Source: Coriobacteriaceae bacterium (GTDB lineage: Bacteria; Actinomycetota; Coriobacteriia; Coriobacteriales; Eggerthellaceae). Taken from it: a stretch of DNA of 64,000 nt. The notes beneath the pieces are model-generated. The model was not told the DNA's origin and searched no databases. It worked only from the letters and a program-made list of their open reading frames with translations. Shown in pieces: positions 4,732 through 64,000 of the stretch. Position 1 is the first letter of the stretch. Each line of letters opens with the position of its first letter. The DNA is taken from the NCBI GenBank assembly GCA_015062685.1, contig SUUE01000001.1, forward strand, positions 209,704-273,703, read 5' to 3'. A program made the translations under genes and the position numbers.

Positions 4732-5572
4732 CGCCGTCTACGTTTGACTCGGTATCTTCTGCCCCGGCCGCCTGGGCGCCCTGCCCCGCGCCAATCAGGC
4801 CGTCGTCCTCGTTGTCGTCGAACACGAGGTCGCCTGAGCCCTCGATGTACGATATGTCAATATCGCCGAAGGCGTGGTCCTGCACGATGTTGACCATCGA
4901 GCGCTTATAGAGCTCGAGCACGGCCAAGAACGTGACGACCACGATGGGCGTGGGCGTGTCGCCGCCCACGAGCTCGGAGAAGCGCACGCGCTTCTTGTTC
5001 TTGATGCGCGTGTGGAGCGCGCGCACGTGGATCTCCACGGGAATGGGCTTGGCGGCGATGTGGTCCGATTCGAGCAGCGCCACCTCGCGGCGCGCGTAGG
5101 CGCCCGCCGCCATGAATGCGATGGACTCGAGCGGCACGTCGCGCAGGAAGTCGGGCATGGCCTTCAGGAACTCCTGGTCGGGGCCGAACACGCGCGGGTG
5201 GAGCCTCATCTGCGCCTGCTCGCGGCCTTCGAGCATGGCGGCCGCGCTCTTGAACTTCTTGTATTCGAGCAGCCTGGCCACGAGCAGGTCGCGCGCCTCG
5301 GTCGGCCCGAGCTCGACGAGCTCCTCCGTGGTTTCGTCGCGCTCGCGCGGCACGAGGCTCGCCGCCTTGATCTCGAGCAGCGTGGACGCCACGAGCAGGA
5401 AGTCGCTCGCTACGTCGAGGTCGACCACGCTCATCTTGGATATCTCGGCCAGGTACTGGTCGGCGATCTCGGCGATGTTGATAGACCCGATGTCCACCCT
5501 CTGGCGGCTCACCAGGTAGAGGAGGATGTCGAACGGCCCCTCGAAGTTGTCTGTGCGCACCCTATACGACAT
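4703..5572 (-). CDS. scpA: Segregation and condensation protein A
   Basis: YRVRTDNFEGPFDILLYLVSRQRVDIGSINIAEIADQYL motif; overlaps scpB by 29 bp. Confidence 0.92.
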   Translation of the reverse strand: MSYRVRTDNFEGPFDILLYLVSRQRVDIGSINIAEIADQYLAEISKMSVVDLDVASDFLLVASTLLEIKAASLVPRERDETTEELVELGPTEARDLLVARLLEYKKFKSAAAMLEGREQAQMRLHPRVFGPDQEFLKAMPDFLRDVPLESIAFMAAGAYARREVALLESDHIAAKPIPVEIHVRALHTRIKNKKRVRFSELVGGDTPTPIVVVTFLAVLELYKRSMVNIVQDHAFGDIDISYIEGSGDLVFDDNEDDGLIGAGQGAQAAGAEDTESNVDGDAELEALDA

Positions 5573-5587
5573 TCACGCCCCGCGAAC

Positions 5588-6271
5588 CTAGTACACCGGG
5601 AATATGACGTTGAACAGGTTGAGCGCCGTCGCGTTCAGGTAGAGCCCGATCGGGTCGACATGCAGGAACTGCGGCACCGCGATCACCAGCACCAGGAAGA
5701 TCGGCAGCGCGTACTGCTGGATCTTGTAGTAGGTGGGCAGGTACTTCGTAGGGCAGAAGAACGCGAAGATGGACGAGCCGTCGAGCGGCGGGATGGGCAG
5801 CAGGTTGAAGAACATGAGGAACAGGTTGATCTGCACGTAGTACGGCAGAAAGTAGGCGAACACGTAGAGCAGCAGCTCGTTGTTCATGGCGAGCTGGTAG
5901 ACCGGCAGCGTCATGGAGCACACCCATGCGATGCCCGCGCCCACGAGCGCCTGCAGCAAGTTCGCGGCGGGGCCCGCCAGACCCACGATGAGGTCGCCCT
6001 TGCGGGGGTCCTTGAAGTAGCGCGGGTTGTAGGGCACCGGCTTTGCGTAGCCGAACACAGGCATGTGCATGGCCATGAGCATGACAGGCAGCAGCACCGT
6101 ACCGAACGGGTCGATGTGCTTGATGGGGTTGAACGACAGGCGCCCCTGCCCCTTCGCGGTGGGGTCGCCCAGCTTGTAGGCGGCGAAGGCGTGGCCCATC
6201 TCGTGTAGGACGATGGCCGGCACGAACGCGATGATCGAGCATATGATGTATGGCAGGTAATCTGATGTCAT
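5588..6271 (-). CDS. Site-2 protease family (M50) membrane metalloprotease
   Basis: VLHEMGHAFAAYKLGDPTAKGQGRLSFNPIKHIDPFG; NLLPIPPLDGSSIF. Confidence 0.92.
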   Translation of the reverse strand: MTSDYLPYIICSIIAFVPAIVLHEMGHAFAAYKLGDPTAKGQGRLSFNPIKHIDPFGTVLLPVMLMAMHMPVFGYAKPVPYNPRYFKDPRKGDLIVGLAGPAANLLQALVGAGIAWVCSMTLPVYQLAMNNELLLYVFAYFLPYYVQINLFLMFFNLLPIPPLDGSSIFAFFCPTKYLPTYYKIQQYALPIFLVLVIAVPQFLHVDPIGLYLNATALNLFNVIFPVY

Positions 6272-6435
6272 GCGCCCATGATACCCGTTAGCGCCCCGCC
6301 CTGGCGGAACGCCTCAAGTTCTCCGTAGGTTAACTCATCTCGATTCTCGCCGAACATGGCGCTCTCGCGGGTTACTATTACCCTATCTATAAACGATTCT
6401 GCAATTGCAGGCGCATAAACGAAGGAGTGGTTCAC

Positions 6436-6918
6436 ATGGCTCGTTACGCTAAGATCCTCGCCGCCCTCGACGGCAGTGCCTCCCAGGAAGCCGTTATCCG
6501 CAGGGCGTTCTCGATCGCTCACGACAACAACGCGGAAGTGCTGCTCGCGCACGTCATCGACTCGACCCTCTTCGAGACCGGCGGCGTAACCGGCGACGAC
6601 ATCGCGCAGGCGAACAAGGAGTCCATCGAGAAGGACCTCGCCCGCTACCTCAACCGCGCCAACAGCGATCCGCACATCACCTCCGTTGACATCGTCGTGA
6701 AGGCGGGCAACATCGCCGAGACCCTCGTCAACGACATCGCGAAGCCCTTCGGCCCCGACCTGGTAATCTGCGGCGTGCGCGGCCTCTCGAGCATCAAATA
6801 CGCGTTCGTCGGCAGCGTGTCCACCTACCTCGTGCGCAACGTGGACTGCGACGTGCTGGTTGTGCGCCCCGAATCCATCGAGGACGTGGACTACGCCGAA
6901 TACGAGGACTACGAGTAA
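6436..6918 (+). CDS. Universal stress protein
   Basis: MARYAKILAALDGSASQEAVIRRA...GPDLVICGVRG...DVLVVRP; RBS GAAGGAG upstream. Confidence 0.9.
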   Translation: MARYAKILAALDGSASQEAVIRRAFSIAHDNNAEVLLAHVIDSTLFETGGVTGDDIAQANKESIEKDLARYLNRANSDPHITSVDIVVKAGNIAETLVNDIAKPFGPDLVICGVRGLSSIKYAFVGSVSTYLVRNVDCDVLVVRPESIEDVDYAEYEDYE

Positions 6919-14207: not shown

Positions 14208-15509
14208 CTACTTGAAGAAGCCGTCGTAGTTGTGCATCTTGAGCTGGCTTTCCACCTTCGTCATGGTGTCGAGCGCAACGCCGATCATGATCAGGATGGA
14301 CGTGCCGCCGAACGCCTGGATGAGCTGGTTGCCCGTGAAGTAGAACAGGATGGACGGCACAACCGCGATGGCCGCGATGAACAGACCGCCCGGGAGCGTG
14401 ATGCGCTTCAGGACGTTCTTGATGTAGTCCGTCGTGGCCTTGCCCGGGCGGATGCCGGGGATGAAGCCACCCTGCTTGCGGATGTTGTCCGCGGTCTCCT
14501 CGGGGTTGAAGACCATCGAGGTGTAGAAGTAGGCGAAGAACACGATCAGGATGAGCGTGAGGATCCAGTTGAGCGGACCCGTGGACACCCAGTTGGCGAA
14601 CGTGTTCAGCCAATCCACGTTGAACAGCGCGGCAAGCTGCGCCGGGAAGTAGATCAGGCAGCTCGCGAAGATGATGGGGATAACGCCAGCGGCGTTGACC
14701 TTCAGCGGGATGTAGGTGTTCTGCCCGCCCATCATGCGACGACCCTGCACGCGCTTCGCGTAGTTCACGGGGATGCGGCGCTGAGCGCGCTCCACGAAGA
14801 TGATCGCGGGGATGCACGCCAGGACCACGATCAGGATCAGCACCGTGATGGCGATGCCCAGGCCCGTGACGCCGTTCAGGTTGATCGAGCTCCAGATGGC
14901 CTGCGGCACGCGCGACACGATGCTGATGAAGATGATCAGCGACATGCCGTTGCCCACGCCGCGCTGCGTGATGAGCTCGCCCATCCACATGATGAACGCC
15001 GTGCCAGCGACGAGCGTGAACACGATCACGACGCTCGTGAGCTGAATGGGCACCTCGGTGGAGAACTTCACGCCGTACGCGTCGGACTGGAAGAGCAGCA
15101 GGTAGCCGATGGCGTTGATCAGACCCAGGACCAGCGTCATGTAACGCGTGATCTGCGTGATGCGCCTACGGCCCGTCTCGCCCTCCTTGGCCCAGCGCCC
15201 GACGGCGGGGATAACGCCCTGCATCAGCTGCATGATGATCGATGCGGTGATGTAGGGCATGATGCCCAGCGAGAACACCGAGAAGTTAGACAGGGCGCCG
15301 CCCGAGAAGAGGTCCAGCATGCTCATGGACACGCCGCCAACGCCACCATCGGCGTTCTGCGACGCGAAGAGCTGCGAGAACTCCTGCCAGGGCACGCCCG
15401 GAACGGGCAGGTAAGCACCAACTCGATACAGCGCGAGAATAGCAAGAGTGAACAGGATCTTCTTGCGAAGCTCCGGTACCTTGAACGCGTTGATGAGTGA
15501 ACTTAGCAA
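14208..15509 (-). CDS. secY: Preprotein translocase subunit SecY
   Basis: [38 protein letters not shown]...; canonical SecY. Confidence 0.97.
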
Positions 15510-15952
15510 GGCTCTTCAACCTTTCCGCCAGCAGCCTCGATCTTCGCCTTAGCGGAGGCCGAAACCTTGTCAACCTTGACCGTGAGCGCCTTGGAGAGGT
15601 CGCCGTCGCCGAGCACCTTCACGAGGTCCTCGTAGTGCTTGATGATGTTCTTCTCGACCAGGGAGTCGTGATCCACGACGTCGCCAGCCTCGAAGCGCTC
15701 CTCGAGCAGCTTCACGTTGACGGGCACGTACTCCACGCGGTTGATGTTGGTGAAGCCGGGCAGCTTCGGGAGACGACGCGCCAGAGGAGTCTGGCCGCCC
15801 TCGAAGCCAGCGCGCTTGCCGCCACCAGCACGGGAGAGCTGACCGTTCTCACCACGGCCAGCGGTCTTGCCCTTACCAGAACCGGGGCCACGGCCGACGC
15901 GCTTCTTGGCATGACGCGAACCCGGTGCGGGGTAAAGATCTTTCAGTTCCAT
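15503..15952 (-). CDS. rplO: 50S ribosomal protein L15
   Basis: [38 protein letters not shown]; start trimmed from the ORF track. Confidence 0.95.
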
Positions 15953-16038
15953 TTCAAATCCTTTCGCTCTACGGGGCGGTTCCTTCCCCACCCCGTGCTG
16001 GCAGCTCGCTCGCCAGCAAACTTCCTTTGTTGCTGCAA

Positions 16039-16062
16039 GGACGCGCGGAGCGCGCCCCTACA
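16039..16062. repeat. REP-like palindrome GGACGCGCGGAGCGCGCCCCTACA
   Basis: Recurs at 2341, 39224, 47524 and 48907 in the same form. Confidence 0.85.
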
Positions 16063-16189
16063 AGTGCATTTGCACGAGGCGTTCCCGTACAAGCGCATTT
16101 GCACCCATGGCATTATAGCCAACTTGCAACAGTATTGCTCCGCCAATATCGTTTCCCAACTCAACTTCCCCACCCCACACGGTAGCCTT

Positions 16190-16312
16190 TCGGCGCCGGA
16201 GGGGCGAAGCGAGGTCAAGCCAAAGGAGGAGCGAGATCCACTTTTCCGCCCGTTCTTGGCGGAAAAGTTAGCTCGCGACGACGACGCGGTGAGCGTAGCT
16301 CCTCCGGCGCCG
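16190..16312 (+). repeat. Covarying-stem structured element, copy A
   Basis: Outer arms CGGCGCCGGAGG/CCTCCGGCGCCG; inner hairpin ACTTTTCCGCC-cgttctt-GGCGGAAAAGT; conserved flanks shared with 23788-23929 and 36890-37029. Confidence 0.88.
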
Positions 16313-16372
16313 ATAGGCGGGCAGCCTGAAAGCTAACGGTGGGGAAGCTCGCGCTCCCCCACCGAAAGTTCC

Positions 16373-16561
16373 TTAAAGCTCTTCGACGGTGATGAGGTGC
16401 TTCACCTTGAAGATCATGCCACGCACGCTCTCGTTGTCCACGATGTCGTGCGTCTTGCCGATACGGCCCAGACCGAGCGACTTGAGGGTCTGCTCCTGGT
16501 CGTACTTGCGGCCGATTGCGCTTTTAACCTGCGTCACGCGCAGCATCTTCTGGTTTGCCAT
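16373..16561 (-). CDS. rpmD: 50S ribosomal protein L30
   Basis: MLRVTQVKSAIGRKYDQEQTLKSLGLGRIGKTHDIVDNESVRGMI. Confidence 0.95.
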   Translation of the reverse strand: MANQKMLRVTQVKSAIGRKYDQEQTLKSLGLGRIGKTHDIVDNESVRGMIFKVKHLITVEEL

Positions 16562-16563
16562 TC

Positions 16564-17109
16564 TTAGGCCTCCTCGGTGGTAGCGGCCTGCTTGCGGCCC
16601 CAGATGTAGTCGACCGACACGCCGCGGCGTGCTGCGACCTCTTCGGGGCTCTGCATGTTCTTGAGGCCCTCGGCGGTCGCCTTGACGATGTTCATGGCGT
16701 TGTTGGTGCCGAGCGACTTGGTGATGACGTCCGTCACGCCAGCCAGCTCCATGACCGCACGGACCGGGCCGCCGGCCTTGACGCCGGTACCACGGATAGC
16801 CGGCTTGATCAGCACGCGGCCAGCGCCGTACTCGCCCATGATCTCGTGGGGCACGGTGCCCTCCTCGGTGAGCGAGATGTGGAACATGTTCTTCTTGGCA
16901 TCCTCGACGCCCTTGGAAATGGCGGTCGGGACTTCCTTGGACTTGCCCAGGCCAACGCCCACGTTGCCCTGGCCGTCACCAACGACCACGAGAGCGGTCA
17001 GCTGCATGCGGCGGCCGCCCTTGACGGTCTTCGCAACGCGCTTGATGGTAACGACGCGTTCCTGAAGCTCGGGAACGTTGGATTCCTGCTGTTGCTGTTT
17101 ACGAGGCAT
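16564..17109 (-). CDS. rpsE: 30S ribosomal protein S5
   Basis: [46 protein letters not shown]. Confidence 0.97.
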
Positions 17110-54068: not shown

Positions 54069-54689
54069 TCACTCAACATCATTCACGTTGACGAAAAGCT
54101 GTTCAAACTCCGATTCCGTATACGTGTATACGTTCCTGAAAAGATACCCCTCGAGCTTCTTTAAGCCAAATCTATCTATCCTGGTTTTGGCAAGCTTGCT
54201 CACTTGATCTTGAATAGCATCGAAATGCCGCTCACGCTTCGGTTCATCTGAAGCTCGTTTCCCACCGCTCCACGATTCGTCATAGTTTTTATTCTTGTTG
54301 TATACAAGAACGAAATCCAACTCTTCCCTAGCAGAAGAAACATGGAAGTTGCAGAGATCGGCAAGGACTATAGTGCTGTCGTATGCCTTTTTGAGAACCC
54401 CAAACGCCTCCTTGCTACTAATGTGCCCATTCTTAAACTCTATGATTATGCCCTTGCCGGCGTTGTCTACAAATAGAGCATCTGCCGAACACGCTTCTTC
54501 GCAGCACGAAAGCGTCTCAAAATACTTCGTTTTCAACATGTCCAAATCATACACGGGTAAGTTGGACTTCGTCATGTATTCATGCTGCATCCTATTTGAA
54601 CAATGATCATCCAAAGATGTATTGCTAAGCGTGCTGATACACGCGCATAGCATCGGGCAATCAAAGCTAATAGATGCCATATTCATCAT
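54069..54689 (-). CDS. Putative PD-(D/E)XK-type nuclease partner of the upstream AAA ATPase
   Basis: ADALFVDNAGKGIIIEFKNGHIS (D-x(n)-ExK pattern); start region overlaps the 3' end of the ATPase gene. Confidence 0.6.
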   Translation of the reverse strand: MMNMASISFDCPMLCACISTLSNTSLDDHCSNRMQHEYMTKSNLPVYDLDMLKTKYFETLSCCEEACSADALFVDNAGKGIIIEFKNGHISSKEAFGVLKKAYDSTIVLADLCNFHVSSAREELDFVLVYNKNKNYDESWSGGKRASDEPKRERHFDAIQDQVSKLAKTRIDRFGLKKLEGYLFRNVYTYTESEFEQLFVNVNDVE

Positions 54690-55962
54690 CTTCTAGCTTT
54701 TGTAGCGGATACGAAAGCGTTTCATATATTACGTCGGTACTCGTTGTAACGTCTTTGACACGAACCCCATCCTCGGACTTCTGGGCAAAGTAATAGTGGC
54801 AGGCACCGGCCACTCTGTGCTTGCGTGAATAAACTTCAATTGATCGAAGGAAATACGGGCTATGCGTATTCAGCAAAATGTGCATTCCGAATTCTTTCTG
54901 CAAAAGCACAATGATTTCAGCGAACAGCAACTGCCATTCAGGATGAAGATGGATTTCTGGCTCATCGAGAATGAGCGTGCCATTTTGCTGAACCGCGCCA
55001 TTTGAGATCAGCATTTTCAAAATAGCGAACATCTTCATTCCTGCTGATATGTTTCTTATATCGACATCCTCTTCAATGCCATCGACGTGATATGAAAGCC
55101 CCCTCCGAGTAGATTGCGTTTTAATCTCACCCGGAACAGCCATCGAGAGCTTGTTGAAAACCGAATGCAGTTTCTGATTGATTATTGCCTCATCCACCGC
55201 AGTTGGCTCATCAAAAAAATCATTATTGTATATATCAGAAACAAGATGCTGCCGATGGCTTGCAAAACGCCGCTCCCCATCATCAGGAGGACCTAACAGC
55301 CTACCATCATCAACAACATAAGGATCGTCAATATAAATCGCTTCTGCCTGAAGAGACACTCCTTCTTCCTGTACATGCACTTTATTATTCGCAATTGAAA
55401 CGGTTAAATAATCGTTCTTTACCTTAAGCTTCACCAAAGCCGCATTGGAGGTACGCATATTATTAATTTGCTTATTGAACTCAGAATTGAAGATGTTGTC
55501 GAGCATGACCTCAACTACGGAATCATCAGGAGCTCGAAGGATCTGGAGTATCCTTTCGAATGAATACTCCACGATATCATCAACATTTTCTCCGTTCCTT
55601 AAATTCAAACCCTGAGCACAAGCGAGGATTTCAGCCCGAAGAGATTCATTGTCACTAACTAACGTTTCAGCATTTAAGACCATACGGTCAGCGGCAATCT
55701 TTAAGGGATCCAAACGCAGCATGCCGCCCCTGTTTCTAAAATACGCATCCTGAATCGCACGCATTATCGAATTCGCTTTACTGGCGGCTACGCGCATATT
55801 CAGCCTGCTGAAACCGTTGAAGATGCACCATAACGTTTTGCCAATTGTGCTCTTTCCGGCATCATTGGGACCCGCAATAACGGTGATTCCATCGATAACA
55901 ATATCAGCACTGCTAATCTTTCCAACATTTTCAATATGAAGGCGCATGCTACCTCCGCTCAT
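54667..55962 (-). CDS. AAA-family ATPase (AAA_15/AAA_21, OLD/RecF-like, no TOPRIM)
   Basis: Walker A GPNDAGKSTIGKTLW; TLILDEPEIHLHPEWQLLFAEIIVLLQKEF; LNTHSPYFLRSIEVY. Confidence 0.85.
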   Translation of the reverse strand: MSGGSMRLHIENVGKISSADIVIDGITVIAGPNDAGKSTIGKTLWCIFNGFSRLNMRVAASKANSIMRAIQDAYFRNRGGMLRLDPLKIAADRMVLNAETLVSDNESLRAEILACAQGLNLRNGENVDDIVEYSFERILQILRAPDDSVVEVMLDNIFNSEFNKQINNMRTSNAALVKLKVKNDYLTVSIANNKVHVQEEGVSLQAEAIYIDDPYVVDDGRLLGPPDDGERRFASHRQHLVSDIYNNDFFDEPTAVDEAIINQKLHSVFNKLSMAVPGEIKTQSTRRGLSYHVDGIEEDVDIRNISAGMKMFAILKMLISNGAVQQNGTLILDEPEIHLHPEWQLLFAEIIVLLQKEFGMHILLNTHSPYFLRSIEVYSRKHRVAGACHYYFAQKSEDGVRVKDVTTSTDVIYETLSYPLQKLEDDEYGIY

Positions 55963-56619: not shown

Positions 56620-58191
56620 ATGGCGAGAAAGATAAGGGCGAAGCTGATAATGGAGCTTCGCGAGCAAGGGCTGTCGAGGAGGATGATAGCCAAGACGCGC
56701 CGCATGTCGATGGAGTCGGTTTGCGATGTGTTCGACATCGCGGCCGATCGCGGCATCGGCTGGGACGAGGTCAAGGACATGTCCGACGACGACGTCTACC
56801 GCCTCTTCTACCCTGACAGGCACGTCCGTGAGAGCATCTTCGAGGAGCCCGATTGGGAATACGTCCACAAGGAGATGGCCAAGGTCGGCGTAAACCTGCG
56901 GCTGCTTCACGACGAGTACAAGGAGAGGTGCCGCCGAACCGGCAAGGTGGCCATGGGCTACACCAAGTTCTGCGGCGACTACGGCGACTGGGCGGTCGCC
57001 AACAACCTCACGAAGCGCATCGAGCACAAGGCCGGGCAGGCCTGCGAGGTGGACTGGTCGGGGCCGACGCTCGGCAAGGGACTCGTCGACCCGACGACCG
57101 GCGAGGTCTCCAAGGTATACCTGTTCGTCGGCGTGCTGCCGTTCAGCCAGAACGCCTACTTCGAGCCGACGCTGGACATGAAGGAGCGAACCTGGCTCCG
57201 CTGCCATGTCCACATGTACGAGTTTTGGGGCGGCGTCCCCGACAGGACCGTTTGCGACAACCTCAAGGCCGGCGTGATCAAGCACCCGCGCGAGGGCGAG
57301 ATAGTGCTCAACGACGCCTACGAGGCTCTCGGCGAGCACTACATGACCGCCATCATGCCCGCCCAGGTCGGGAAGCCGAAGCAGAAGCCGTCTGCGGAAG
57401 GGACCGTCCGGGATGCGGCGACGTGGGTCATCGCCCAGCTGCGCAACCGCACGTTCACCAGCTTCGACGAGGTGGTGCTCGCCGTGCGCGAATGCAACGC
57501 TGCCTACAACGCCCATCCCTTCCAGAAGAGGGAGGGCAGCCGCGACTCGGTCTTCGCCGAGGCGGAGGCAGCGGAGCTCAAGCCGCTGCCCGACGTCCGC
57601 TACGACGTCGCCGAATGGGTCTACAACCGCTCGGTCAACCTCGACTTCCACGTCGTGTACGCCAAGAACCGCTATTCCGTGCCCCACCGCTACGTCGGGC
57701 GCAAGGTCGATCTGCGGGTCGGCGAGTCCACGCTGTCAATCTACCACGCCGGCGACCGCATCGCCACCCACCGGCTGCTGCCCGCGTACGTCAGGAACGG
57801 CTACTCCACCGACGAGTCGCACATGCCCGAGGCCTTTCTCAAGCCCGAGTGGGACGACGTGCGCATAAAGGGCTGGGCGAAGCGGGTCGGCCCGAACTGC
57901 GCGGCCGTCGTCGAGCGCATCTTCGACCGCGCCAAGGTCAAGGAGCAGGCGTACAACCCGTCGCTTTCCGTGCTCAACCTCTCTAAGAAGTACGGCGAAC
58001 AGCGTCTGGAGGCCGCATGCGCCCACGCCCTCCCGAAGCTGAACTCGCCGCGCTACAAGCATCTGAAGGCGATTCTCGATTCCGGGCTCGACGACCCGAC
58101 GGCACAGGTGCCGGCGCGGAGGAGGCCGGACGGCGGGCCGGGATCGGGCCCCAAGGGCCATGTGCGCGGTGCCGACTACTACAGGGAATAG
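56620..58191 (+). CDS. istA: IS21 family transposase IstA
   Basis: DDE residues in VDWSGPT, CDNLKAGVIKHP, KQKPSAEGTVRDA; followed by istB. Confidence 0.95.
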   Translation: MARKIRAKLIMELREQGLSRRMIAKTRRMSMESVCDVFDIAADRGIGWDEVKDMSDDDVYRLFYPDRHVRESIFEEPDWEYVHKEMAKVGVNLRLLHDEYKERCRRTGKVAMGYTKFCGDYGDWAVANNLTKRIEHKAGQACEVDWSGPTLGKGLVDPTTGEVSKVYLFVGVLPFSQNAYFEPTLDMKERTWLRCHVHMYEFWGGVPDRTVCDNLKAGVIKHPREGEIVLNDAYEALGEHYMTAIMPAQVGKPKQKPSAEGTVRDAATWVIAQLRNRTFTSFDEVVLAVRECNAAYNAHPFQKREGSRDSVFAEAEAAELKPLPDVRYDVAEWVYNRSVNLDFHVVYAKNRYSVPHRYVGRKVDLRVGESTLSIYHAGDRIATHRLLPAYVRNGYSTDESHMPEAFLKPEWDDVRIKGWAKRVGPNCAAVVERIFDRAKVKEQAYNPSLSVLNLSKKYGEQRLEAACAHALPKLNSPRYKHLKAILDSGLDDPTAQVPARRRPDGGPGSGPKGHVRGADYYRE

Positions 58192-58201
58192 GGGGCTTGC
58201 G

Positions 58202-58942
58202 ATGATAGACGAGGAAACCAGGAGGAAGCTGCGCGAGTTGAACATGGGCGAGATGGTCGAGGCGCTCGACCTGCAGGATTCCGACAGGACGACGATGGCG
58301 GTGCCGTTCGACGAGCGGGTGCGCATGATGGTCGATTACGCCTACGAGGCCAAGTACGCCTCGAGCGTGAAGCGGCTGGTGCAGCGTGCCAAGCTGCGCT
58401 TCCCGGATGCGGAGATTGGCGAGATGATATACGACGGGCGCGGCATCGACGGCGTCCTCATCCGCGAAGCGGGCACCTGCCAGTTCATGGAATCGGCGTC
58501 CAACGTGGTGATAGAGGGATGTACCGGGACCGGCAAAAGCTACCTTGCTTGCTGCCTGGCCAAACAGGCCTGCAGGAAGCGCCGGAGCGCCCGGTATGTG
58601 AGACTTCCCGACCTGCTGATGGAGCGCGACGAGCTCGCCGCCACCGAGCGGTCGAACGCCAAGATCCTGAAGAAGTACGCACGCTACGAAATCCTGATCT
58701 TGGACGAATGGCTCACCGAGGACGTGAACGACGTCGACATCTCCTTCCTGTTCGAGCTGATCGAGCGGCGCTATGCGACGAAATCGACCGTGCTCTGCAC
58801 TCAGTACACGCCGGCAGAGTGGCACGGCCGCCTCGGGGGCGGCGTGCAAGCCGACGCCATGGTCGATCGCCTGGTTCACGGCTCCGTAAGAATCGACTTG
58901 GGCGACGTCAACGTGCGCAAGCTGCTCGCCGGCAGGAAGTAG
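58202..58942 (+). CDS. istB: IS21 helper ATPase IstB
   Basis: ASNVVIEGCTGTGKSYLACCLAKQACRKRRSARYVRLPDLLMER; ILILDEWL. Confidence 0.95.
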   Translation: MIDEETRRKLRELNMGEMVEALDLQDSDRTTMAVPFDERVRMMVDYAYEAKYASSVKRLVQRAKLRFPDAEIGEMIYDGRGIDGVLIREAGTCQFMESASNVVIEGCTGTGKSYLACCLAKQACRKRRSARYVRLPDLLMERDELAATERSNAKILKKYARYEILILDEWLTEDVNDVDISFLFELIERRYATKSTVLCTQYTPAEWHGRLGGGVQADAMVDRLVHGSVRIDLGDVNVRKLLAGRK

Positions 58943-59280: not shown

Positions 59281-62211
59281 TTAGCGTAGCCTGAATAGTG
59301 ATTCCACTTCTTCCTTAACTCGTTTGATTACAGTCTTCCTAATGTATGTGCAATCTCTAAGTACATCGGCGCTTCCAATTTGCCACTCATGGTAATTAGT
59401 GCCAGGTCTTCCAAGCATCCTTGCAACCTTTGTGTATTCGTTTGCGCGTTCTGCAAACCCTCCACCAGGAAACGCCTCGGGGAAAAAGCCTGTTACGAAC
59501 TCGACCTTTGTATCCTCGTCCTTATCAGTTGGAAACTGCGAGATGCGAATATGCCAATCGGAACCGTAATCGTCACCATCGCCCTTTCTTAACGCAACCC
59601 GTAGCGATAAAGGACCTTCAACGTACGAGGGCAAGTAAGGGCATAATCCGCCCATGAAAGTTTCAACGTATTCTCTGTATGATCGTTCGCATTCCAGAAG
59701 CGCTATCGCGCATCGCTTCTTTACGGTCTCTTCTTTGTACATATCCCAAACCCACCTGCTAGCGCAATCGACATTGTCGGGCTCTGGTGGTAGGAAGCGG
59801 AGATATTCCTCTCCGCTCATTTCGAGAAGCTTTATCAAGCAATATAGAACGCTATTTGGAATCGTAACGCCATCGATATTGATGAGATAATCGGGCTTTC
59901 CGTTGATAATAGCGCCGAATTCGTCAGCATTGCAGTTTCGAAGGGTGAGAATCTCTCTTTTCCCCGTATCGCTCCAACGACTGAGGCTTCTATTCCTCAG
60001 TGCGCCTTCAATCAGCCCGACACGCATGCCGAGCGGTTCCGTAAGAATTGTCGTAGACGACTTGAAGAAACTCTCGATATCATCGGATACCATCGAAATG
60101 GCTATTTCCCGCGCACAGTCGATGCCTCCATAGATGTTTTTGACACGATACACGTGAACTTCTGGCCTATCGGACGCTCTGAGGCTTAATATGGGCATGA
60201 CAATTCCATCAGCCGTTGTCATCGTTGGTCCTTGAGCATCATCGGACAATTCCACGGATATAGCGTCATCACCATCGTTGCGTTTCTCAAGAAGCTCGAT
60301 ATGCATAACGGTCGTATATGGGCTATACGACACGTTTGCACGAATTGGCGTATCGAGCGCCGACAGGGACCTCCAGAACGGTATATGGGGCTTCATGGCC
60401 TCAAGGTAGATGGCCGAGATGTTGATGTAGCTTTTCAGGGCTTGCCTCGCAATCGCTTCGATTTCTTCTTTGCTCGGAGCATCCTGCACCTGCTCAGAAA
60501 GGTTCTGGCGGCCCCGAAGGCAGTCCATATAAAGAGCCAGATTGTTGCACTCTAGGTAATCGAAAACAACTGCTTGCTTATCGCCGCTCTTTATACATCC
60601 GCATAACAATTGGAAGAGATTCGCGAGGAGCTTTTCGTGCCCATGCTTCTCGCAGAAAGACTTTATGTAGGACTTGCTTTGATGTGCGAGATAATCTGCA
60701 GCCAAGTATTCCTGCAATACACAATGAGAAAAGTCAGTGCCATCATGGGTTTTCACGAGCAGCCCGCTCCTTTTCCCATGTGCTTCGATTTGATTTGCCT
60801 CTTCAGCCGTCATGGCTGAGATGAGGAAGGATCTTAATGGAAGCGTTTCTGGGTCGAGGAGTTTCTTTAAAGCGTAGGATCCAAGCTGACGCCTAACATA
60901 GGATGAATCCATTTCTGCATCTGGCTCTATCTTAAAATCAAGCATGCTGGTAATACATTCGTCGTATACGGCAGATAAATTCCTTGGAACTGCGTTATCG
61001 CCTTGAACGTAAAGGAATCTCACGAGACAAGAAAGATGTAACGGGTTTTGCATCAGTTTGCGACCAGCATCGCTGAATCGACTCATCACGCTATGCGCAT
61101 GATATATGCCGTTGGCCTTCAGAAAACCGATGACTTGTTCGTTGCTTAAGCTATCGAGCCGCACACAGTCAATGCCAATAATCGAGCAGTCGCTTTCGAC
61201 ACGTGACGAGCAGATTATTTGCGATCTTTCGCGTCGAGCGTACAAGGCTAATTCGTTTAAAAGAAGATCACGATCTTTTCTCGCCTCATCAAGCCCATCA
61301 ACCATCAAACAGAACAAATCCGGGTTTGCCGCAACAAATTCCCCGCTTATCTCAGGTGTTGTTTTTGCGATTGCGCATGCTGCTCCATCTTCTAGTGAGC
61401 TGTATTGACGTGACCAGCCGCGCGCTTCAAGAATAACGGGAATTCGAGTGCTTTCGCCATCGAGATAATACCGTGCAAGCTCAGAGGCCAGGCTAGCGAT
61501 AAGCTCGCTTTTTCCTATACCAGGCTCGCCTGATATGAGCATAGAAGAGTTCGCCTTTGCAAGATCAGCAGAAGTGACGCTCTCCTTCGTGCGCCCCCTG
61601 TGAACAGTTCTCTCGATTGAGTCCGATTTGGTCATCTGGATAACCTGTTCGCAGTATCTCGCCAGAATGGGACGAACACGATCTCGCTCGGAAATGGCTT
61701 CGGTTTTAATTGCCTTTGCCCTTTCAAATGAGAACTCTGTATAGATTCTTGGCCAAGTCTTCGCAAGCTCCGATGGCGTTTCTGCTGAAAACTGCTTATC
61801 TGCCGCGTTTAGAACGCTCACGAAAAAACGAAACGACGTACCGTTCGTGATGCAATAAAGCGGTGCGCGCGTCCAGTGAGTATAGAACTCCGCCTGCGTC
61901 CTAGCGTCGTCGAGTTCCTCATCAGGACCCTTCACTTCCACTGCAAGAAGAGTGGTATCTCGATACTCATCGCTCAATGCCGTTTCGCGATCAGGCTTAG
62001 CAGTTTTTTTCGTGTAGCACATCGCATCGGCTTTTTTAGGTGAGGGCTTCGACCGTCCTTCGTTGTAGTAAACGGGAACCTCGGTTGAGATGAACTCCGA
62101 TGGATATCCGAGTATTGCGAGAAGCTTCATAACAACTTTTGCGCGCACGTCTTCTTCGCTGTTGAGCTGCTCCATCTCTATTGCTCTTACAAGTTCATCG
62201 CATCCCGACAT
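59281..62211 (-). CDS. STAND/NACHT NTPase with N-terminal HSDR_N-like PD-(D/E)XK nuclease domain (bacterial NLR-like, candidate antiphage protein)
   Basis: N-term KADAMCYTKK...LLAVEVKGPDEELDDARTQAEFYTHWTRAPLYCITNGTSFRFF; NACHT Walker A MLISGEPGIGKSELIASLA, Walker B LFCLMVDGLDEA; long C-terminal sensor-like region. Confidence 0.82.
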   Translation of the reverse strand: MSGCDELVRAIEMEQLNSEEDVRAKVVMKLLAILGYPSEFISTEVPVYYNEGRSKPSPKKADAMCYTKKTAKPDRETALSDEYRDTTLLAVEVKGPDEELDDARTQAEFYTHWTRAPLYCITNGTSFRFFVSVLNAADKQFSAETPSELAKTWPRIYTEFSFERAKAIKTEAISERDRVRPILARYCEQVIQMTKSDSIERTVHRGRTKESVTSADLAKANSSMLISGEPGIGKSELIASLASELARYYLDGESTRIPVILEARGWSRQYSSLEDGAACAIAKTTPEISGEFVAANPDLFCLMVDGLDEARKDRDLLLNELALYARRERSQIICSSRVESDCSIIGIDCVRLDSLSNEQVIGFLKANGIYHAHSVMSRFSDAGRKLMQNPLHLSCLVRFLYVQGDNAVPRNLSAVYDECITSMLDFKIEPDAEMDSSYVRRQLGSYALKKLLDPETLPLRSFLISAMTAEEANQIEAHGKRSGLLVKTHDGTDFSHCVLQEYLAADYLAHQSKSYIKSFCEKHGHEKLLANLFQLLCGCIKSGDKQAVVFDYLECNNLALYMDCLRGRQNLSEQVQDAPSKEEIEAIARQALKSYINISAIYLEAMKPHIPFWRSLSALDTPIRANVSYSPYTTVMHIELLEKRNDGDDAISVELSDDAQGPTMTTADGIVMPILSLRASDRPEVHVYRVKNIYGGIDCAREIAISMVSDDIESFFKSSTTILTEPLGMRVGLIEGALRNRSLSRWSDTGKREILTLRNCNADEFGAIINGKPDYLINIDGVTIPNSVLYCLIKLLEMSGEEYLRFLPPEPDNVDCASRWVWDMYKEETVKKRCAIALLECERSYREYVETFMGGLCPYLPSYVEGPLSLRVALRKGDGDDYGSDWHIRISQFPTDKDEDTKVEFVTGFFPEAFPGGGFAERANEYTKVARMLGRPGTNYHEWQIGSADVLRDCTYIRKTVIKRVKEEVESLFRLR

Positions 62212-62227: not shown

Positions 62228-63439
62228 CTACACCGCCCATACGGGCACAGCCTGCACGTTATCGCTCACGAAATATGGGGCCTCCGCCTGGCAGAGCACA
62301 TGGCCGAACCCCACCTCGTAATCAGGCATGCCCTCGAGGCAGGAGAAGCTCTTGACAGCATCTGAGCCCACGGTCGCGGCAGTTTTCACCTCTACAGGAT
62401 GCAGCGTCCTGCCGCGTTGGACGACCAGGTCGATCTCGCGCTTCTTGGCATCGCGGTAGAACCATATGTCCCGCAGGCTCGCGCCCGCGTTCATATGGCT
62501 CTTCAATACCTCACCTACGGCGAACGTCTCGAACATGTGGCCCGCCACGGCCCCCCGCTCGAGCGCGTCCGGCGTAGTCCAGCGGGCGAGATGGCACGCG
62601 AGGCCCGTGTCCGCGAAGAAGAGCTTCGGGGTCTTCGCGAGCCGCTTCTCGACGTTCGCCCAGAAAGGATGCAGCAGGTGGATGACGCCGGAGGCCTCGA
62701 GCACCGACGCCCACGACTGCACGGTCTTGTAGTCCACGCCCACCGTCCTGGCGATGTCGCTCGCGTTGAACAGCTGCCCCGTGCGCGCCGCGCAGGCGAC
62801 CATGAAGCTGTAGAACCGCGACTCGTCCTTCACGTTCACGAGATCGCGCACGTCGCGCTCGAGGTAGGCGCGCACGTAGTCGGTGTAGAAGGGGTCCCAC
62901 TCGATGCCCGGGTCCTGGAGCTCTGGCATGCTCCCCCGGTGGATGACCTCCCAGATGCTCTTGGGTGCCGGCGGCACGTCGGCCGCCTTGAGCTCTGCTG
63001 GCACGTAAGCGCGCGGTGCCGCAGCGACGCCGGTAATCTCGCGCAGGGAGAGCCCCGCCATCTGGATGATGCGGACGCGGCCGGCGAGCGACTCGCTCAC
63101 GCCTTTCATCAGGTGGTAGGTCTGCGACCCGGTGAGCACGACGGTGCCCTTCTCGTCGGATTTGTCCACGAGGAACTTCACGGTGGAGAACAGCTGCGGC
63201 GCCTTCTGCACTTCGTCGATGATGATCGGCAGCTCGTGGCTGCGGAAGAACAGCAGCGCGTCCTGGGTTGCCTGCAGGAGCGCCGAGGGGTCTTCCATGG
63301 TCACGTAGTTGTAGCGGCTCCCCAGATGGTGCCTGAGCATCGTGGTCTTGCCGACCTGCCGTGCACCCGTGACGAGCACGACCTTGCCCTGCCCGAGCAT
63401 GCGGTCGACGGTGCGTTCCACCTCGCGTTCGATATACAT
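62228..63439 (-). CDS. ATP-binding protein, AAA_14 + DUF4143
   Basis: GKVVLVTGARQVGKTTMLRHHLG; LPIIIDEVQKAPQLF; ERDVRDLVNVKDESRFYSFM; WFYRDAKKREIDLVVQRGRTLHPVEVKTA. Confidence 0.92.
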   Translation of the reverse strand: MYIEREVERTVDRMLGQGKVVLVTGARQVGKTTMLRHHLGSRYNYVTMEDPSALLQATQDALLFFRSHELPIIIDEVQKAPQLFSTVKFLVDKSDEKGTVVLTGSQTYHLMKGVSESLAGRVRIIQMAGLSLREITGVAAAPRAYVPAELKAADVPPAPKSIWEVIHRGSMPELQDPGIEWDPFYTDYVRAYLERDVRDLVNVKDESRFYSFMVACAARTGQLFNASDIARTVGVDYKTVQSWASVLEASGVIHLLHPFWANVEKRLAKTPKLFFADTGLACHLARWTTPDALERGAVAGHMFETFAVGEVLKSHMNAGASLRDIWFYRDAKKREIDLVVQRGRTLHPVEVKTAATVGSDAVKSFSCLEGMPDYEVGFGHVLCQAEAPYFVSDNVQAVPVWAV

Positions 63440-64000
63440 GAGCGCCTCCTGTCTTTCCGGAAGCATTATTGCTCAATTATCGAATGAGGTCAAATTTAGG
63501 AATAGTTATCCTAATAGTATCTATTTCGATATGGACATGAAGCGATAGCACAAACATCGATGAAGGTCCGAATTACCCTGCATGCCATCGAGCCATTTCT
63601 CAGTGCTTCGGAGCACAATGGCGCCTCCATGCGCATCGAATCCGAATACCAAAACACCAATGGCCTTAGCTTCTTGGTGTCTGCAGTTCGTCTTTGCCAC
63701 CATCCCTGGCCGCTAGCCCACACGTGCGCGGACAAGCCCGATAACGTAGCAGGCCGGACGATCACGCGTAGGGTGTGCGCCGCTGCCCGGGCGTGACGCA
63801 TGACGGACGCGCGCCCCGATAACGCTGCCATAGGCCAGATGGCGGCGTAGCGTGGGCTGAGCACGCGGCCGGAGGCAGACCGCGTCAGCGGGCTGCCGTA
63901 GGCGCGTATGCGAAGACCACGCGGAGCCGACAGCTGGCCGTGCGGGAGACTTCCTGGGCGCGCGGCCGGCATGTGGCACGAACGGGCCGAGCGCACACCC

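Follow-up and report, generated by a model that had tools for sequence, protein, structure and literature searches.

An overlapping OLD-type ABC ATPase gene and PD-(D/E)xK-like gene in a Coriobacteriaceae bacterium: a probable anti-phage module distantly related to WonAB

Introduction

A pair of overlapping genes in a Coriobacteriaceae bacterium (assembly GCA_015062685.1) raises the question of whether an ATPase and the small protein encoded behind it form an anti-phage system and, if so, of what kind. The genes lie in a 64,000-nucleotide stretch of contig SUUE01000001.1, here called the window, which was analysed as a whole. The original prediction, made from the DNA letters and their open reading frames, took the pair for an ATPase–nuclease module in a possible undescribed defence system.

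Modules with these components are on record. WonAB, from the WASA-1 prophage of V. cholerae, consists of an OLD-ABC ATPase and a PD-(D/E)xK nuclease, and its anti-phage activity requires both genes and both active sites (PMC12137116). The toxicity of WonB depends on WonA and, since translation stops while genomic DNA stays intact, an rRNA or tRNA target has been suggested for the nuclease (PMC12137116). The same source describes WonAB as close kin of an operon class recognised in silico, which couples an OLD-ABC ATPase to a protein of novel restriction-enzyme fold. The class has a frequency of 0.96% among bacterial genomes, and every WonAB homologue detected falls within it. The subclass is named OLD-ABC ATPase+Novel REase in a review (PMC12409358); both sources ascribe the operon class to Krishnan et al. 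2020, with an exemplar from Anaerovibrio lipolyticus, and the published exemplars are SHI83489.1/SHI83462.1 from Anaerovibrio and AWB73975.1/AWB73976.1 for WonA/WonB. In addition, a survey reports OLD-ABC ATPases paired with PD-(D/E)XK, HNH or PIN nucleases, with PD-(D/E)XK pairs lying beside BREX (PMC12839542). In the literature surveyed, activity data for modules of this kind come from WonAB and PD-T4-4 only (PMC12137116, PMC9519451). A literature search, with most subscription papers and preprints outside its coverage, returned no paper on the locus described here.

Results

The two genes overlap on the minus strand

Both of the proposed open reading frames are present. The ATPase gene (54667..55962, minus strand) encodes a 431-residue protein with an ABC/OLD-type head and no TOPRIM domain, to which a sensor or regulator role may be assigned, and the small effector gene downstream of it (54069..54689, minus strand) encodes a putative PD-(D/E)xK-like nuclease of 206 residues. 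If the small gene starts at its first ATG (54689), the overlap is 23 bp (54667..54689, minus strand), as had been suggested for its upper limit; a start at codon 2 reduces it to 20 bp, and one at codon 4 (54680), giving a protein of 203 residues, to 14 bp. The distance from codon 4 to the conserved residue S25 is close to the start-to-S25 distance of the family consensus, and because this start agrees better with the consensus the real overlap may be 14 bp. The two genes also overlap in 65 of 73 relatives, a rough count given that the start in each relative was picked as the one closest to an 8-bp overlap.

The larger protein is an OLD-type ABC ATPase without TOPRIM

The ATPase has the features of the OLD-type ABC family, namely Walker A and B motifs, signature and H-loop. 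The Walker A motif GPNDAGKS (aa 31–38; 55849..55872, minus strand) includes G31, N33, G36 and K37, all invariant among 38 aligned ATPases. The Walker B and D-loop segment LILDEPEIHLHPEWQ (aa 330–344; 54931..54975, minus strand) includes D333, E334, P335, E336, H340, P341, W343 and Q344, which are likewise invariant in that alignment. The H-loop THS (aa 366–368; 54859..54867, minus strand), part of the stretch THSPYFLRS (aa 366–374), places H367 33 residues beyond E334, and the reading frame ends 64 residues past this histidine, with TOPRIM absent. Overall, the motifs quoted in the original prediction are all present, and all ATPase motifs are kept in the focal protein and are invariant or nearly so among the aligned sequences. 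Matches to the Pfam models AAA_21 (2e-18) and AAA_15 (6e-18), the motifs and the TOPRIM-less 431-residue frame agree with one another in supporting the proposed OLD/ABC-type assignment.

Among PADLOC models HEC-02A scored best (5e-22), with NsnB, PD-T4-4_A (5e-21) and AriA at similar strength; as judged from sequence, these matches point to OLD/Septu-type ABC heads in general. The AlphaFold2 model of the ATPase (pLDDT 89.5, pTM 0.90) matched retron and Septu PtuA, Rad50 and SMC heads in Foldseek, and a sequence search of solved chains returned PtuA, AriA and OLD.

The small protein probably adopts a PD-(D/E)xK nuclease-like fold

The focal small protein is matched by no model in Pfam, NCBIfam or PADLOC, apart from one chance NCBIfam match (0.07), and a search of solved structures by sequence with the small-protein family gave no match. 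The unnamed PHROG phrog_25533 was matched by five of the seven members of the first alignment (best 4e-22), the focal protein not being among the five. HNH and TOPRIM matches were absent from the Pfam, NCBIfam and PADLOC results, in keeping with the earlier view that the effector is neither.

The sequence does carry the D-ExK signature that had been noted, in the segments DALFVD (aa 70–75) and IIIEFKNG (aa 81–88). An alignment of 74 small proteins was assembled from 73 full-frame relatives and the focal protein; its conservation counts omit nine of 82 positive loci, in which the small gene is short or broken, in some cases at a contig end. Four residues (D50, D70, E84 and K101) show no variation in this alignment, S25 and F85 occur in 73 of 74 sequences, and residue 86 is lysine in 72 and arginine in two (L117 and L124). 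The putative metal-binding residue D70 (codon 54480..54482, minus strand) stands where a core strand (residues 71–74) begins, and E84-F85-K86 (54432..54440, minus strand), the putative catalytic ExK, lies in a strand formed by residues 80–86. The gap between D70 and E84-x-K86 is mostly 13–15 residues across the family, which is the PD-(D/E)xK pattern. K101 (codon 54387..54389, minus strand) is in the helix that follows the ExK strand, and the distance from the ExK glutamate to this lysine is mostly 14–17 residues, rising to 91–93 in two rows of the alignment. We take these two rows to be L131 and L149, going by protein length; the Coriobacteriaceae small proteins (L131, and L149, which is the same as L187) are about 290–300 residues long.

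In the AlphaFold2 model of the small protein (pLDDT 89.5, pTM 0.86), D70 opens one core strand and E84 and K86 sit in the next. Foldseek comparison of the model with the PDB gave no match with E < 0.001; its first PDB matches were Hef, SgrAI, HamA, EcoO109I and NucS. VIA-align returned no match with Z ≥ 8, and rows 1–38 of its 50 (Z 4.2–5.9) are PD-(D/E)xK proteins, as judged from their titles and known folds. These rows include Can2, PspGI, EcoO109I, EndoMS, BspD6I and Card1, as well as FokI, McrC, SgrAI, XisH, Avs4 and BamHI; the first unrelated protein, KRas, appears at rank 39. Although every single match is weak, the uniformity of the fold list taken with the invariant residues makes a PD-(D/E)xK nuclease-like fold likely. 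The earlier concern that the small protein might have no nuclease fold was not borne out.

The weak fold scores would also be expected if the small protein were a catalytically dead or non-nuclease version of the PD-(D/E)xK-like fold, acting as a structural or ligand-sensing subunit, and one phage-borne overlapping small gene (in L170/L171) does lack the D...ExK motif. This explanation is distinctly unlikely for the family, in that D70 and E84 are retained in all 74 sequences across phyla and position 86 is always lysine or arginine, as would be expected for catalysis. The L170/L171 pair itself is remote, with an ATPase gene at 5004–6332 overlapped by the small gene at 6316–6888; the small protein has asparagine at the aspartate position and VRTES where IEFKNG is expected, and from its sequence it appears to be an effector that is dead or of another type, conceivably a decoy. 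A second, divergent pair occurs within locus L086 (about 15160–16964). Its ATPase bears LDEPEAHLHPMWQ and its small protein is truncated, yet retains SADGL...LIEFKSG; a partial phage ATPase in L036 resembles this second ATPase.

The two genes are conserved as a unit

Conservation of the pair was examined by searching with the ATPase and then inspecting the downstream gene at 88 loci (80 on genome contigs, five on viral contigs, two on plasmids and one in a phage-collection record). The five viral-contig loci (L031–L035) are full-length, and the phage-collection record was found through the small protein. A small-protein homologue lies directly downstream on the same strand at 82 of the 88 loci, and at 75 of the 80 on genome contigs. 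At five of the 88 (L033, L078, L098, L140 and L150) the small gene is absent though the contig continues; L094, also without it, stops at a contig edge. The phage-contig ATPase gene of L033 (5977–7314) stands alone beside a replicative-helicase-like gene, the nuclease gene being absent.

In the reverse direction, the small-protein profile was run against whole genomes of the host class, of the family of the L101 genome and of the genus to which Anaerovibrio sp. JC8 (L143) belongs. The gene was carried by 5/396, 21/397 and 2/16 genomes, respectively, the first two counts each including one genome chosen for having it. At E ≤ 1e-15 an ATPase gene lies directly upstream at all 22 places found, a count that leaves out the focal locus and L143 and includes L205, which matched in the genome search but not when re-checked with a profile built for this analysis. 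Eighteen of these places are new (two of them near-identical) and four were already known. Weaker matches, outside the threshold, comprise L206, at a contig edge; L209, with a remote ATPase; L207/L210, one degenerate place with no ATPase gene in the available flank; and L208, a broken small-gene copy with the ATPase in two pieces.

Moreover, the ATPase and small-protein distance matrices of 72 pairs are correlated (r = 0.77, with none of 2000 permutations as high and the best at 0.29), although this co-divergence partly reflects the common ancestry of the hosts. The pairing of the two genes far exceeds chance. The conservation as a unit that had been anticipated is thus seen from both directions (82 of 88 and 22 of 22), and the contrary outcome, a pair not conserved elsewhere, did not arise.

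The pair is rare, patchy and most likely acquired

The pair is rare and patchy in its distribution. Within the host family the small gene occurs in one of 138 genomes. In a tree of 72 rows, 47 belong to Bacillota, and further members come from Spirochaetota, Planctomycetota, Fibrobacterota, Deferribacterota and Actinomycetota; one archaeal bin also carries the family, with its small gene broken. The focal pair forms a long lone branch whose placement is unsupported.

Relatives are carried by a small mobilizable Klebsiella plasmid, by an Acinetobacter plasmid, on phage or prophage contigs and on a faecal mobile-element scaffold, the last of which presumably bears a relaxase-like gene. Searches with the focal small protein itself gave no match in plasmids or in viral contigs, and a Gram-negative, WonA-like branch was sought in the viral contigs and not found. 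The G+C content of the pair is 0.438 against 0.624 for the whole window; when segments of 1.9 kb were slid along the sequence, two out of 620 reached so low a value. In composition the pair looks foreign, and it was most likely acquired horizontally.

These data bear on two explanations in which immunity is absent or secondary. The resemblance of the ATPase head to Rad50 and SMC would suit a housekeeping DNA-repair pair without an immune role, an SbcCD/RecF-like ATPase with its nuclease; such a function is very hard to reconcile with a patchy family missing from 137 of 138 host-family genomes, with plasmid and phage carriage and with a foreign G+C content, and we regard it as highly improbable. 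Overlapping genes and mobile carriers would instead fit a toxin–antitoxin or addiction module that retains plasmids, prophages or islands, phage defence being secondary. The gene order, with the ATPase first, and the size and catalytic nature of the ATPase set the pair apart from common antitoxins and count against this proposal. WonAB, too, is a toxic nuclease with a regulator, but WonB is toxic only when WonA is active, which argues against simple sequestration (PMC12137116) and leaves an addiction module unlikely.

The pair is set among defence genes

The surroundings of the pair agree with the defence-island setting that had been described. An IS21-type transposase/helper pair (56620..58942, plus strand; Mu-transpos_C_2, 4e-19), whose helper is probably istB as read from its ORF, separates it from the next defence gene. 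This gene (59281..62211, minus strand; G+C 0.483) encodes a 976-residue protein with HSDR_N_2 (6e-09) and NACHT (9e-07) matches, by sequence a probable defence STAND NTPase. Beyond it lies PDC-S01 (62228–63466), and further along the same contig, past the window (L158), are HsdR, HsdM and HsdS, forming a complete type I restriction–modification operon, a protein with restriction-type matches and PDC-S02. ORF reading gives a McrBC-like pair in L158, of which the first protein has only restriction-type and PDC-S02 matches and the second has none.

For the relatives, a PADLOC scan covered 138 of the 143 nearest ORFs and an equal number of the 143 distant ones. The five omitted from each set were near-duplicate ORFs, ORFs that overlap the pair or are homologous to it, exceptionally long ORFs or those at the end of the list. 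Known defence genes are slightly commoner near the pair, with HsdS at 5/138 near and no family above 1/138 far. The excess among immediate neighbours is slight and allows a weak conclusion at most, because the counts are per model and models overlap.

Relation to WonAB and to other known systems

Septu (PtuAB), PARIS (AriAB) and Gabija (GajAB) have related ABC/OLD heads and a common ATPase–effector logic, and to this extent the parallel drawn with them at the outset holds. Their effectors are HNH in Septu, TOPRIM in PARIS and TOPRIM plus helicase in Gabija, and the focal pair has none of these. Indeed, no HNH match was obtained for the small protein or for six relatives scanned, excluding Septu; no match to a TOPRIM (DUF4435-type) AriB was found in Pfam, NCBIfam or PADLOC, excluding PARIS; and for Gabija the 431-residue ATPase lacks TOPRIM and no UvrD-like helicase gene is adjacent.

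PD-T4-4, from an E. coli ICE (PMC9519451) and listed with a PD(D/E)XK domain (PMC10952713), is likewise an ATPase–nuclease pair, and PD-T4-4_A matches the focal ATPase at 5e-21. The focal pair differs in that HEC-02A matches the ATPase slightly better and in that its small protein is matched by no PADLOC model, although remote kin could escape such models. HEC-02, a PADLOC candidate, supplies the best model of the focal ATPase (HEC-02A, 5e-22), but HEC-02B does not match the focal small protein; its matches in the family are weak (0.008 for the relative L032 and 0.0014 for one member). An ATPase in L082, presumed to be a true HEC-02A match (1e-130), is far from the focal family (4e-17 to the family profile).

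The closest correspondence is with the published class. Like the OLD-ABC ATPase + Novel REase operons as described, the focal pair consists of two genes, for a TOPRIM-less OLD-type ABC ATPase and a downstream protein with a probable variant restriction-enzyme fold; two of 16 genomes in the exemplar genus Anaerovibrio carry the focal family. The prevalence found in the host class and in the L101 family is of the same order as, to somewhat above, the published 0.96%. By its published description, WonAB, the best-studied counterpart in layout, likewise combines an ATPase with a PD-(D/E)xK effector and is carried on prophage or mobile DNA. The reported WonA residues K34, E300 and H333 (PMC12137116) allow the ATPase heads to be compared, although head dimensions are not a published definition of WonAB. 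The spacing from Walker B to the H-loop is 33 residues in both WonA (E300–H333) and the focal ATPase (E334–H367), whereas K34 to E300 in WonA spans 266 residues against 297 in the focal ATPase, making WonA about 30 residues shorter here; among 78 relatives with both motifs the corresponding spacing is 277–336. In addition, WonAB is reported mainly in Gram-negatives, whereas the focal family is centred on Bacillota.

With a head some 30 residues longer, and a likeness to WonA that is by description only, the pair is not filed as WonAB itself. Placed by published descriptions, it is best read as a distant member of the OLD-ABC ATPase + Novel REase/WonAB kind. The suggestion that the defence system is undescribed does not stand: WonAB (PMC12137116), the Novel REase class and the pairs of PMC12839542 place it in a known kind. 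What is new is narrower, namely that the small protein escapes every Pfam, NCBIfam and PADLOC model.

Discussion

We consider it probable that the locus was acquired horizontally and encodes an anti-phage module of two genes, for an OLD-ABC ATPase and a PD-(D/E)xK nuclease, that is distantly related to WonAB and acts by abortive infection. In such a scheme the ATPase would probably dimerise head to head over ATP, hold the small nuclease and, on sensing infection, free or activate it; the nuclease would then cut an essential nucleic acid and halt the cell before phage are produced. By analogy with WonB, the most likely target would be RNA of the translation machinery. For the focal pair, the assembly of the two proteins, the trigger, the nucleic acid that is cut and the fate of the cell are inferred. 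Several observations count against this explanation, namely that the WonA head is shorter, that the Foldseek and VIA-align matches are individually weak, that the neighbour enrichment is slight and that five of 88 ATPase genes lack the small gene.

A tentative possibility is that the same module cuts DNA, the ATPase recognising foreign or abnormal DNA and guiding a restriction-like cut in the manner of Septu or Gabija. Most of the folds nearest to the small protein belong to enzymes of DNA restriction or repair, the ATPase head resembles PtuA and Rad50, and type I restriction–modification genes share the island. However, nearest-fold lists cannot separate an RNA from a DNA substrate, no separate DNA-binding domain was found, and the closest tested system keeps genomic DNA intact and stops translation (PMC12137116).

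It is conceivable, though rather doubtful, that the Bacillota-centred branch is a separate effector family, in which S25, D50 and K101, conserved besides D70-E84-K86, would mark a nuclease with a substrate of its own (such as one particular site in a tRNA or rRNA) and the ABC head would respond to a trigger unused by WonAB, PARIS and Septu.

Overall, the pair and its relatives extend the WonAB-like kind to a large group, most of it from Bacillota, that goes unseen in standard defence annotation. The 74-member alignment and its named residues provide targets for asking whether ATPase-gated PD-(D/E)xK effectors generally strike the translation machinery and not DNA, and with a profile built from the small protein such modules could be counted in annotation.
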